DNA from: a virus
Virus record (IMG/VR): IMGVR_UViG_3300046513_000348
Coordinates: 154,661 to 218,660 of that record
Strand: one strand, 5' to 3'
Length of the DNA stretch: 64,000 nt
The position numbers and the translations under genes are program-made. This document shows, piece by piece, positions 12,427 through 17,101 of this stretch. Below the pieces are notes generated by a model. That model saw only the letters and a list, made by a program, of their open reading frames with translations, had not been told where the DNA came from and made no database searches. Positions within the stretch are counted from its first letter, which is position 1. The number at the start of each line of letters is the position of its first letter.

Positions 12427-13566
12427 TTAGTCGAGGGTCAGGTCCCACTTGCGGCCTTTGTCGTCACGTTGGACGGCATTGACCATGTACGAAGTACCAG
12501 GAGCTTCTTGCGGCGATGCTTGGGTCGAACCCAAGTTCACGCGCTTGTTCATGTACGACAGCGGGTTTTCGTAAATGAGTGGGAAACTCACGTCGGTTTC
12601 CACGCCTAGGAAAGAAGCGATGTCCGTACCACCGAAGTACGCGAAGTTCTTCAGTGCTTGCGGTGGAGCACCAGGCAGCTCGAAACCATCGGTGAACGAA
12701 ACGTTGACCCAGTGTTCTTCCGAATACATGGTGTCGTTGATCAACTGCACGATGACGTGACGGTTGTTCTTGAACGCTTCGCGGCCACGATCGGTCGCCA
12801 GCAGGTCACGGATGACATACTTGCCGTACGGTACGTGGATCTCGATTTCGTCCTGTGCGATACGCTGGACGGCATCGCCGATCGGTTGGAAGATGTTCAG
12901 GTTGCAGATCGCGAAGGTCGTTGCGAACGACGGCATGAACTGGCCGCGCTCCATGCACAGCAGTGCGATGAAGTACAGGAACATGTGATCGAAGATGTCG
13001 TAGCGTTCCTTGTCGGTCAGCGGGTAGATATCCGGACGAGCCTGGTACAGAGCCCAGCGGTGTGCGCTGATGAAAGCCTGCTCGAAGACCTTGCCGACAA
13101 TGCTGATGCGATCGATCGAGTTCATGTCGGCTTTGAACTCTTCCAGTGCCGACATCGGATCGTCGAACGACTGGCGAACGATTTCCGAATAGGTCAGGGC
13201 GTGGATCGACTCATTGTCCGAAATGCGCTGGTAGCCCGTGAAGATTTCACTGGACGACACGATGCACGACGTGATGCCGGCGATGGTGGATGCGGCAGTG
13301 CTGTCGGTTTGCCACTGATAGGCCAGGGCCTGACGCATGCTTACCGCATAAGGACGCAGCTCGGGATCGGCAAATTCGACCTTGCACTGTTCAAATACGA
13401 ATTCGAATTCCGTCCAATCCTGTCCGCGCAGCTTGCGGTACAGGCCGGTTTGGTCTGGGTATTGCTGAGTAATGGAATCGACCAGACCACGAGCCTGGCC
13501 AAGAATGATCGGAGTTTTTTCATAGTCCGTCTTACCGGAGTTGAAGATTACGGGATTGATGGTCAT
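12427..13566 (-). CDS. nrdB: Ribonucleotide reductase class Ia, small (radical) subunit
   Basis: The 379-residue protein carries the diiron and tyrosyl radical motifs of NrdB: D88 in QWQTDS, the E-x-x-H...Y motif in DNESIHALTY (E119, H122, radical Tyr126), and a second iron motif QDEIEIH near residue 238, in which E to H spacing is one longer than in E. coli. It generates the tyrosyl radical that is passed to NrdA to reduce ribonucleotides. Length is close to the usual 375. It is the last gene of the nrdH-nrdA-nrdB operon, 63 bases after nrdA, with a weak hairpin in between. The ribosome binding site is weak. Confidence 0.93.
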   Translation of the reverse strand: MTINPVIFNSGKTDYEKTPIILGQARGLVDSITQQYPDQTGLYRKLRGQDWTEFEFVFEQCKVEFADPELRPYAVSMRQALAYQWQTDSTAASTIAGITSCIVSSSEIFTGYQRISDNESIHALTYSEIVRQSFDDPMSALEEFKADMNSIDRISIVGKVFEQAFISAHRWALYQARPDIYPLTDKERYDIFDHMFLYFIALLCMERGQFMPSFATTFAICNLNIFQPIGDAVQRIAQDEIEIHVPYGKYVIRDLLATDRGREAFKNNRHVIVQLINDTMYSEEHWVNVSFTDGFELPGAPPQALKNFAYFGGTDIASFLGVETDVSFPLIYENPLSYMNKRVNLGSTQASPQEAPGTSYMVNAVQRDDKGRKWDLTLD

Positions 13567-13628: not shown

Positions 13629-16600
13629 TTACGACGAGCAGCCTTCGCAGACTTCGCGTTCGTTTTCGTCTTCGAAGACGATGCCCAGGGCAGCCATTTC
13701 GTCAACGAGTTCAGCCTGACCATCGTGAACGACATTGGCTTCCGAAGGCACGAGGTCTTCCGGAGAAGGCAGAACGCTCAGGACCATGCCAGCTTCATCA
13801 GCCAGTGCAGCCCAGTCATGACCAGAGGCCACGATCTGTTCTTGCAGACCGGCGATGCCTTCGGCGAAGTCCACGATGGAACCTGCGAAGAATTCCTTGG
13901 CCAGCGCATCTTCATACGCTTTCCGGAACGCATCGCTGAACACCTGCCAGGCGTAGTCGTGTGCCGATTTCGAGATCTTCATCGCATCGTCCGTTTCCGG
14001 CATCAGGATGTTGACGTAGTAGCGGGTTTTGACGCCTTTCTTCACACGGTCGATCTCGGCGTCCAGCAGATCCGACGAACGAATCACCACGCGATTGGTG
14101 AAGTCCATGTACCAGTCGGCCGAAACCGTCTGATCGCAGAACTTCTGAGCCAGCGCGTACACACTGTTCTGATCCAGCAGGCTGAGCTGCCACATCGACT
14201 GATACTCGTAGGCCGGATCGTCACCATACGGAGCTGCCCAACGCAGAACGTTGTTGGCATCCGTCTTGATCATGATCGGCTTGCGGATGCCGTAGATGCT
14301 GTTCGTTGCACCCAGAGCCTTCGAAGACGATTCGCCCGGCATGAAGTTGATCAGGCAGCTGTGTGCGAGACCGCCATTGGCGATGATGCGCTGACGCTGT
14401 TCTTCATGGTCGTACTGGTAGACGAAGTCCGCCAGCTTGTCGACTTCCTTGCGGTAGGTCTGGAGTGGAGTCCAGCCTTCAGGCCACTTGGTACGGTTGA
14501 TCCACGGCGCCAGGCCGCGTTCCTTCGAGATCTCGAGAGAAGCCTCGATCGCGTAGTACAGGTGGCGCTCGAACACACGGTGCAGTTCTTCCAGGCCGGC
14601 TTTCTCGTTGAACTTCAGACGCTTACGCGCCATGTGGGTTGCCAGACCCATCATGCCAACGCCGGCGTTCATGCGAGCCTTGGCGGTTACACCCATGTGA
14701 GCCAGGATGTAATCGTTTTCCATGATGCAGTAGTCGATCATCTTGTACGCGTAGTACATGACGTCGCGATACTCGTCTTCGCTGATTTCGTCGGTGACGT
14801 TGATCGAGGCGAGCGAGCACAGCGCAACTTCCGGTTCCTTCTTGACGCTGATGACGTTCGACACCGTGAGGGTACCATCGGTCTCGGTCCAGAACTTGTT
14901 GCCGACCTTGACGGTTTGAGCAACCCATTTCTGACCAGCGATCGGCTTGAGGACATCGGATGCCTTGAGGCCGAAACGGATCACCTTACCGTTCGTATCG
15001 GTTGCTTCGAAGATGGCGTGGCCAACTTCTTCGCTCGACTGCAGATCTTTCATTGCGTCGCGGCCTTCGTACGGCATGGTCGGTTCCGACACTTCCAGGC
15101 ACTGGCCGGTAACGATGCCGTTGAACATCGCTTTGTGACGTTTCGGTTCGTTGAAGCAGTAGGTCGAGTTCTCGACGCCCAGGTCTTCGATGTCCAGGAT
15201 ACGAGCATTGATCGGCGTGGTCGGATCATTGATCTCGAAGAAGTCGGCGAGGAACATGCCTTTCTTCAGTTCGTGGGTACGAACTTCCTTCTCGATACCA
15301 CCTGGGCCGATGATGTACCACTTGTGGTACAACGTGCAGTCCAGATAACCCTTGCCGTGGTTGACGTAGACGCGAACCAGCTTCTCGCAGTCCGAGGTCT
15401 TACGCACGGTAACGCCCGACCATTCGAAACCGTTCCAGATTTCGACGTAGCGGTCTTGATAGACCGAGATAGCTTCGGCACCTTTACGGGTGTGGATAAG
15501 CGTTCCTGGAGCCACACACAGGTTCGAGCTGTGGATCGCATCGATGAACGGCGTATTGCGGTTCATCTCGTCGATCGAGGCGGCATAGATCGTGCCGGTC
15601 GACAGACCTTGGGTCAGTGCGAACAGCAGCAGTTCGCGAGCATCGAAGTAGACCTTCTCGAAGTTCTCGTCTGCTTCCAGGCGGGTGTAGATTTCGGCGA
15701 ACTTGTGGATGTCACCGCTATAGAACGCTTCGTGCAGTTCAGGAGCAGTGTAGCAGTTCCATGCGAACACCATCTCTTCGTTCGCTGCTTTCATGGTCAG
15801 GAAACGATTCGACATGAATGCATAGTGCGCATCACGGTTGCGTTTGGTCTCGACGGCGCGGGTATCGCGCAGGCCGAAAATCATGCGTGCTTCCGGATCG
15901 TACAGGTTGGCGTAGAAGGTACCGGCGCCACCACGACCACCTTGCAGGTTGGCACGGATGTTCTTGCCGAACACGTCGATGTATGGTTTCTTGCCGCGGT
16001 GCAGGAAGCGGCCCTTCTGGACGGCGTCACCGATCGAACGGCACATGATGTTCAGACCGATACCAGCGGACTGGGTAGTCATCATGTACGTGATGTGGTC
16101 AGCAGCTGCCAGCGAGAAGCGATCATCGCCGGCGGCGATCAGGCAGCACGATGCAAAGCCGCGGTGATAGGTACCCAGGTTGTTGTAGTTCGGAGTCGGC
16201 GCCGACAGACGCTTCTTCGCGAAGTGGTTGTACATGCGAGCAACGTGCTCGAGACGGCTGCGCTTGCCCGGTTCGCTTTCCCAGGTCGGAGTCTGCGGGG
16301 ATTCCGGGTGCGTTTCGAAGATGGTCATCGCCATGCGCATGTAGACGAACTGCATCGTTTCGAATTCGAGCTTTTCGGCGAAGTCCTGGAGCGAGTACTT
16401 CAGGCGAACCTGCTCGAGTGCGAAGTGCGGAACGACCAGATCCTGGTCATGATCGATGATGTCTTCGAGTGCAGCCCACTCGTATTCGCTGTAGTTCAGC
16501 GGACGCATCAGTTTCTTTTCGGCCAGACGACGCTGTACTTCACGGATCGTCGGGATCTGCTTGCTGCCGAAGATTTCGATGCGGATGAGGACTGCCATCA

Positions 16601-16835
16601 GCTTACCGGCCAGCAGATAGTGAGTCCAGGTCTCGCGCTTCAGGAACTTGTCGATGAGGCTCGACATGAGTTCTTGAACAGTGCATTCGGATGGCAGCTC
16701 AGCGATGGTCTCCTGAGCGATTTCGGACCAGTCCTTGATCTTGATCTTGCCCACGGTGTCCTGCACCCAATGGTTCAGTTTCTTGGCGTCGAATGGTTCG
16801 CGCTCGCCATTAAGTTGAATAACGGTTTCGATCAT
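13629..16835 (-). CDS. nrdA: Ribonucleotide reductase class Ia, large subunit, with in-frame mini-intein
   Basis: The 1068-residue precursor starts with an ATP-cone-like domain (1-90). The active site is recognisable: FASCCLI (C230, matching E. coli C225), HSSNL then the intein (440-578), then CLEVSEP, where C579 matches thiyl-radical Cys439 and E581 matches Glu441; ALCSLAS (C673, matching C462); the radical-transfer pair RYY; and a C-terminal CEGC redox pair (C1063, C1066). About 71 extra residues separate C579 and C673 compared with E. coli. After splicing the enzyme would be about 929 residues, longer than the usual 760, partly from this insertion and a C-terminal extension. It is in an operon with glutaredoxin upstream and nrdB downstream. 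Confidence 0.95.
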   Translation of the reverse strand: MIETVIQLNGEREPFDAKKLNHWVQDTVGKIKIKDWSEIAQETIAELPSECTVQELMSSLIDKFLKRETWTHYLLAGKLMAVLIRIEIFGSKQIPTIREVQRRLAEKKLMRPLNYSEYEWAALEDIIDHDQDLVVPHFALEQVRLKYSLQDFAEKLEFETMQFVYMRMAMTIFETHPESPQTPTWESEPGKRSRLEHVARMYNHFAKKRLSAPTPNYNNLGTYHRGFASCCLIAAGDDRFSLAAADHITYMMTTQSAGIGLNIMCRSIGDAVQKGRFLHRGKKPYIDVFGKNIRANLQGGRGGAGTFYANLYDPEARMIFGLRDTRAVETKRNRDAHYAFMSNRFLTMKAANEEMVFAWNCYTAPELHEAFYSGDIHKFAEIYTRLEADENFEKVYFDARELLLFALTQGLSTGTIYAASIDEMNRNTPFIDAIHSSNLCVAPGTLIHTRKGAEAISVYQDRYVEIWNGFEWSGVTVRKTSDCEKLVRVYVNHGKGYLDCTLYHKWYIIGPGGIEKEVRTHELKKGMFLADFFEINDPTTPINARILDIEDLGVENSTYCFNEPKRHKAMFNGIVTGQCLEVSEPTMPYEGRDAMKDLQSSEEVGHAIFEATDTNGKVIRFGLKASDVLKPIAGQKWVAQTVKVGNKFWTETDGTLTVSNVISVKKEPEVALCSLASINVTDEISEDEYRDVMYYAYKMIDYCIMENDYILAHMGVTAKARMNAGVGMMGLATHMARKRLKFNEKAGLEELHRVFERHLYYAIEASLEISKERGLAPWINRTKWPEGWTPLQTYRKEVDKLADFVYQYDHEEQRQRIIANGGLAHSCLINFMPGESSSKALGATNSIYGIRKPIMIKTDANNVLRWAAPYGDDPAYEYQSMWQLSLLDQNSVYALAQKFCDQTVSADWYMDFTNRVVIRSSDLLDAEIDRVKKGVKTRYYVNILMPETDDAMKISKSAHDYAWQVFSDAFRKAYEDALAKEFFAGSIVDFAEGIAGLQEQIVASGHDWAALADEAGMVLSVLPSPEDLVPSEANVVHDGQAELVDEMAALGIVFEDENEREVCEGCSS
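15102..15518 (-). other. Mini-intein within NrdA (139 residues)
   Basis: Residues 440-578 of the NrdA precursor. Block A is CVAPGTLIHTRKGAEAI; block B is YLDCTLYHKW, with the T-x-x-H motif; the C-terminal blocks F/G are STYCFNEPKRHKAMF then NGIVTGQ followed by Cys. Removing it restores SNL-CLEVSEP, the conserved NrdA active-site sequence. No LAGLIDADG or HNH endonuclease core fits in the 139 residues, so it is a splicing-only element. The terminal residue is Gln rather than Asn, as in some phage inteins. The +1 extein residue is the catalytic thiyl-radical cysteine, so activity depends on splicing. Confidence 0.9.
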
Positions 16836-16852: not shown

Positions 16853-17101
16853 TTAAGCAGGTACGGCGACACGGGCCTGCAGGATCTTGTTGAAGTTGGT
16901 GGGCGTGAAACCCATCATCCAGTTTCCGTTGTCGTTAATCACGGGGAGTTGGCGCATCCCTTGTGCATGGATGTCGGCCACGGCTTCCGGCGTTTCGTGG
17001 AGATTGATCTCCTTGAATTCAACACCTTTGATCTTCAGCGCGCGCTTCAGATTGACGCAGTTTGGGCAGGTGTTGTTGCTATAAACGACGAGGGCTTCCA
17101 T
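16853..17101 (-). CDS. nrdH: Glutaredoxin/NrdH-type electron donor
   Basis: An 82-residue thioredoxin-fold protein with the redox motif NTCPNCVNLK near residue 10 (C12, C15) and the cis-proline segment RQLPVINDNG. It would pass electrons to the C-terminal cysteine pair of NrdA, which lies immediately downstream (17-base gap). The CPNC motif is between classical glutaredoxin CPYC and NrdH CMQC, so calling it NrdH rather than glutaredoxin is partly by context. It opens the RNR operon and follows a leader with a 10-bp hairpin and a TTATG element. Confidence 0.85.
   Translation of the reverse strand: MEALVVYSNNTCPNCVNLKRALKIKGVEFKEINLHETPEAVADIHAQGMRQLPVINDNGNWMMGFTPTNFNKILQARVAVPA

Follow-up and report, generated by a model that had tools for sequence, protein, structure and literature searches.

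A mini-intein at the radical cysteine of the NrdA encoded in virus record IMGVR_UViG_3300046513_000348

The nrdA locus and the inserted element

The stretch of DNA analysed here (the window, 64,000 nt) is the terminal part, positions 154,661-218,660, of the 218,660-base virus record IMGVR_UViG_3300046513_000348. It carries nrdA, coding for the only NrdA in the whole record, the large subunit of a class I ribonucleotide reductase (RNR), and this gene is interrupted by a mini-intein located exactly at the cysteine that bears the catalytic radical. The features are listed below with window coordinates, block positions having been assigned via the alignment with the CDC21-1 intein.

13629..16835, minus strand: nrdA, class I RNR large-subunit precursor, 1068 aa (open reading frame; Pfam PF02867, E 2.7e-62; E. 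coli NrdA structures, E ~1e-79)
15519..16835, minus strand: N-extein, residues 1-439, last residues SNL (alignments)
15102..15518, minus strand: mini-intein, precursor residues 440-578, 139 aa, without endonuclease domain (alignment, profile, structure model)
15516..15518, minus strand: Cys1 (A:1), precursor C440, present in every one of the 68 family members
15318..15335, minus strand: block B with Thr62 (B:7), His65 (B:10) and Trp67 (B:12) (alignments)
15156..15158, minus strand: Cys121 (F:4), precursor C560, second member of the class 3 Trp-Cys-Thr (WCT) triplet, aligned to Asp F:4 of Pho CDC21-1 and kept in 67 of 68
15102..15110, minus strand: end of block G with Thr137 (G:5), Gly138 (G:6) and Gln139 (G:7) (family alignment)
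15099..15101, minus strand: +1 Cys, precursor C579, predicted to act as the nucleophile in splicing and then to serve as the radical Cys (E. coli Cys439) (alignments)
13632..15101, minus strand: C-extein, residues 579-1068, retaining E581, C673 (E. coli Cys462), Y939/Y940 and C1063/C1066 (alignments)

The precursor translation reads ...IHSSNL/CVAPGTLIHTRKG...LDCTLYHKWYI...STYCFNEPKRHKAMFNGIVTGQ/CLEVSEP..., with slashes at the intein boundaries, and the 139 residues lie in frame within one stop-free open reading frame (ORF) of 1068 codons. In the structure alignment with E. coli NrdA, SNLC falls on Ser436-Cys439, where the alignment breaks; beyond the intein it is taken up again in the region of Cys462. 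When the six precursors having the 139 aa were aligned (MAFFT) with the intein-free NrdA of phiKZ and LucasX, the gap ran exactly from SNL to C; moreover, SNLC-x-E is uninterrupted in most of 79 IMG/VR NrdA loci. Excision would join Leu439 to C579, giving SSNL-CLE and restoring the equivalents of Asn437, Cys439 and Glu441; together with C579, the residues retained in the C-extein complete the RNR catalytic set in the precursor. Blocks A, B, F and G were recognised, with Thr B:7, His B:10 and the +1 Cys C579 in place, and the 139 aa align continuously with splicing domains, as expected of a mini-intein lacking a homing endonuclease domain.

These observations agree with an earlier note on this DNA. 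The 139-residue mini-intein at 440-578 that it proposed is borne out by the ORF, the alignments and the profile and fold matches; the exact insertion at the radical cysteine by the E. coli alignment and the phiKZ/LucasX gap; blocks A, B and F/G and the restored SNL-CLEVSEP by the translation and the family alignment. The note had also named the presence of these residues in intein-free NrdA homologues as evidence against an intein, and they are absent from phiKZ and LucasX.

Homology with inteins was found at the level of both profile and fold. Among 15 mini-inteins from the same site, 13 match TIGR01445 (intein_Nterm) and 10 match Pfam Intein_splicing (best E 4.4e-8), and the profile built from them matches solved PDB inteins, namely CDC21-1 (E 5.5e-7), KlbA and NrdJ-1. 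The AF2 model of the window intein (a predicted structure, mean pLDDT 96.8) retrieved a solved intein with Foldseek at E = 6.9e-7, with probability 1.00 to inteins, the 50 PDB matches listed being inteins, intein-like domains or hedgehog domains. Like Cys1, Thr B:7 and His B:10 are each kept in 68 of 68 family members. The reading of the 139 residues as an ordinary NrdA domain, which their being in frame and fixed in a genus-level clade might suggest, is already refuted by these profile and fold matches, by the interruption of SNLC-x-E and by the dozens of related NrdAs that do without them, and we give it practically no credit. A bacterial intein-like (BIL) domain was also considered and ruled out, the +1 nucleophile C579 being present and the host being a conserved enzyme.

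Some points weigh against an active intein. The lone 139-aa sequence of the window matched no Pfam intein model, PHROGs family or PDB sequence, so that it could be recognised only via its relatives and its fold, and a portion of the family members was chosen by junction pattern. In addition, the canonical class 1 ending, penultimate His plus terminal Asn, is replaced by Gly, a change passed over in the earlier note, and Gln, and each such replacement, though known to be tolerated, slows splicing in some inteins (PMC4031507). These non-canonical G:6 and G:7 residues would also fit a domain that folds but no longer splices, in an NrdA that is dead or dispensable to the phage. However, low dN/dS values point to purifying selection on both intein and exteins: 0.16-0.27 for the intein in window pairs (65-67% identity) and 0.07-0.18 among other relatives, 0.24-0.28 for the N-extein in window pairs (68-70% identity) and 0.00-0.15 among other relatives, all rough values, synonymous distances being above 1. 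The catalytic residues are kept, the Chilo iridescent virus (CIV) RNR intein splices with its native Gln (PMC4031507), and nrdA is adjoined by two functionally related genes, making such a relic very improbable:

12427..13566, minus strand: nrdB, RNR small subunit, downstream of nrdA (PF00268, E 8e-11; phrog_86, E 1.6e-67)
16853..17101, minus strand: glutaredoxin-like gene, upstream of nrdA (PF00462, E 1.3e-10)

The boundaries of the element, its homology, predicted fold and conservation, and the existence of empty sites, are established.

Relatives and origin of the intein

The nearest sequenced phages are the Burkholderia jumbo phages FLC6, FLC8 and SURPRISE13, the records of FLC6 and FLC8 being classed under Chiangmaivirus. 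The 139-aa form is found in these three and in two IMG/VR relatives (L020 and L021), 64-67% identical to the window intein (tblastn against FLC6: E = 3e-52 over 139/139 residues), and all six versions keep CVAPGT, T62, H65, C121 and TGQ/C, thus sharing the SNL/C site, the GQ end and the WCT triplet. No intein is annotated in the GenBank records of FLC6, FLC8 and SURPRISE13, and the word 'intein' is absent from two papers on these phages. The window intein is hence one more member of a known intein kind at a known insertion site, whose nearest relatives are unannotated.

The family is widespread. By tblastn it was detected in 310 phage records, including ICP1 and Staphylococcus, Caulobacter, Brevundimonas, Pectobacterium, Acinetobacter, Corynebacterium and Salmonella phages, with an SNL/C or TNL/C junction in every record opened. 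The IMG/VR survey gave 64 loci whose junctions are clean. The class I site accounts for 47 of them and the class II site (NP/C or NA/C) for 17, although one survey junction, L160, appears mis-assigned; the terminal residue is Gln in 41 and Asn in 23, and mini-inteins number 16. The terminal Gln, which the earlier note had singled out as odd, is indeed present in the window intein, but it is no oddity at this site, where 43 of 68 surveyed inteins (~63%) end in the same way. At the catalytic-cysteine site of class II RNRs a terminal Gln is nearly universal (L023, L142, L153, L156, L159, L161, L163, L166, L173, L178 and L179). At three further loci (L051:3445, L058:2826 and L082:5267) another sequence, starting with SNLCLSGDT or SNLCLTGNT and with stop codons downstream, occupies the same nrdA site, and is probably an unrelated intein or a decayed insert.

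Most of the allelic inteins at the class I site and its class II counterpart carry a homing endonuclease, and forms without one have arisen repeatedly. On the tree of 68 inteins, the mini/endonuclease label requires 7 changes, at least 5 of them forced by well-supported branches, and the Gln/Asn ending requires 10; the window intein clusters with five other mini-inteins, all Gln-ending (support 96/84).

The Vibrio phage ICP1 NrdA intein, annotated as intein-containing, shares with the window the insertion site, a CVAPET start and the TGQ/C end, but it has a large middle region of the size of a LAGLIDADG endonuclease and Phe at B:12. In ICP1_2011_A (L006, 1235-4509) two overlapping ORFs replace the unbroken nrdA, the split lying within this middle region, so that without a frameshift the precursor would be broken. 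The NrdE intein of Corynebacterium phage P1201 (CP1201 RIR1) is also a mini-intein at the same SNL/C site, differing in its 159 aa, CVTGDT start and TGN end; the P1201 nrdE that it interrupts is reported to be functionally active (PMC3653736). The CIV RNR (RIR1) intein, another RNR intein with a native terminal Gln, comes from a virus of a eukaryote. The Aquifex aeolicus NrdB (R2) intein lies between active-centre residues of an RNR and splices in E. coli (PMC8772380); it differs in residing in the small subunit and in its 346 aa with endonuclease.

The distribution, the sporadic occupancy and the endonucleases of the relatives are consistent with a mobile element that has lost its mobility. 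In the best overall explanation, which we hold with high confidence, the active-site position is occupied by an autocatalytic mini-intein, formerly mobile and now inherited, which lost its endonuclease in an ancestor of these phages. It would have been kept by vertical descent and recombination, the site itself accounting for the persistence of such inteins because any imprecise loss would destroy an important enzyme. Between L021 and FLC6 (a pair also listed as L002/L021) nrdA identity is ~0.95, falling to 0.73-0.84 only over the intein and a second insert described below, which suggests local recombination, though no endonuclease is encoded there.

A scan of the phage genome for further inteins, LAGLIDADG_3 and HNH_3 gave none; the intein model PF14890 was blank elsewhere in the genome, a result of little weight as the model also misses the known intein. 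A free-standing GIY-YIG gene (226-aa frame, G000:C1:68840-69076) lies far from nrdA, so that co-operative homing is not indicated.

Splicing chemistry and activity of the precursor

From the conserved residues we infer that the intein splices and in what order the steps would occur. The precursor would fold with the Hint domain bulging out of the finger loop meant to bear the radical cysteine. Most likely, a class 1 start would follow, with Cys1 attacking the Leu439-Cys440 bond; the N-extein would then pass to the +1 cysteine C579, cyclisation of Gln139 would free the intein, and an S-to-N shift would yield ...SSNL-CLEVSEP..., restoring the radical Cys, the Glu441 equivalent and a working enzyme. 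By analogy with other inteins, a terminal Gln can serve C-terminal cleavage: in the CIV RNR intein Gln supports splicing better than Asn does, whereas two Pol II inteins react slowly when they have Gln (PMC4031507). A tie between the terminal Gln and a His at an F-block position (residue 128) was looked for across the 68 inteins and discarded, no clean link being found.

Alternatively, Cys121 (F:4) might attack first in place of Cys1, with a branched intermediate at block F handing the N-extein to C579. Trp B:12, Cys F:4 and Thr G:5 constitute the signature of class 3 inteins (PMC5222942), and this first step is possible because the set Trp67-Cys121-Thr137 is complete in the window intein, as it is in all six members of its clade, where it coexists with Cys1. 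Other inteins bearing both signatures are said to have been described by Tori and Perler in 2011. The class 3 inteins Msm DnaB-1, Mle DnaB and Bvi IcmO share Trp67, His65, Cys F:4 and Thr G:5 with the window intein, which differs from them in having both Cys1 and Cys+1, and in its host protein. Class 1 chemistry is favoured because Cys1, which class 3 inteins can do without, is invariant in the family, and because B:12 is mostly Phe (53 of 68), leaving the triplet incomplete in most relatives. Cys is also the second commonest F:4 residue across inteins generally (PMC4031507), Cys+1 is rare among class 3 inteins, and Foldseek places class 1 inteins above class 3 inteins. A class 3 start is accordingly considered unlikely, though worth keeping in mind.

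The +1 splicing nucleophile and the radical cysteine are one identical residue, atom for atom. Because of this, and because E581 (E. coli Glu441) lies beyond the intein, no reductase activity would be expected before splicing, and the enzyme probably works only after excision; on the position of C579 and E581, the inactive precursor claimed by the earlier note is a sound deduction. The same note had further suggested that splicing could be a control point during infection, and for this no support emerged, nothing found indicating regulation. Slow splicing dependent on Gln and Gly could in principle delay or tune RNR activity, for instance by redox state: the placement does tie activity to splicing, and conditionally splicing inteins have precedents, such as the DnaB oxidative stress sensor (PMC6195587). 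Nevertheless, the mini-intein is common to all six Chiangmaivirus-like genomes and its relatives at the site behave as mobile elements; Gln-ending inteins occur there in unrelated phages and in both RNR classes, many with endonucleases, and the extra Cys44 is not kept within the clade. A regulated switch is therefore disfavoured and looks improbable to us.

A second, Hint-like insert in the mature enzyme

Downstream of the intein, the C579-C673 span measures 93 residues, compared with 29 in phiKZ. The extra ~65 residues are found in about 20 jumbo-phage NrdAs, whether the intein is present or absent, and correspond to a second insert:

14832..15038, minus strand: second insert, residues ~600-668, putative degenerate Hint-like domain that lacks blocks A and G, kept in mature NrdA (profile comparison)

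In LucasX this insert keeps a TASH motif that resembles block B. A first hhalign comparison with 15 inteins gave an unconvincing probability of 7.6, which was raised by cropping and deeper alignments: against the 68-intein alignment the score was 36.9 (probability 90.9, P 1.2e-6), with a maximum of 15.2 in 40 column shuffles, and it altered little when the window clade was dropped. Among 69-residue windows taken across the NrdA alignment, those over the insert ranked top (28.5 and 26.7), the best non-overlapping one reaching 15.1. For the AF2 core of the insert (pLDDT about 80), inteins were over-represented and among the best Foldseek matches, at E >= 0.16, and hidden Markov model and sequence searches against PDB gave no match at E<=10. 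On balance the insert is probably of Hint origin. Blocks A and G and the nucleophiles are missing in all members, and without these blocks it cannot splice. A bolder, still tentative, reading is that of a fossil intein, a dead and unexcisable Hint-derived domain which, ~20 residues past the radical Cys and between two active-site cysteines, would have been absorbed into the mature enzyme across one clade of jumbo-phage RNRs, beside a live intein.

Two features deserve specialist attention, this Hint-like insert and the combination of class 1 and class 3 signatures in the intein. Inteins that have Cys1 together with the full WCT set, such as the one in the window, offer a direct test of how the class 1 and class 3 mechanisms are related. 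Inteins have colonised the same RNR position in phage enzymes of both class I and class II, with repeated loss of the endonuclease and with Gln and Asn exchanging freely at the terminus, and those of this site form a natural series for the study of intein decay. If the second insert is truly a fossil, it would record the fate of an intein that lost splicing without killing its host protein, and would represent an intein domesticated within the active-site loop of an enzyme.
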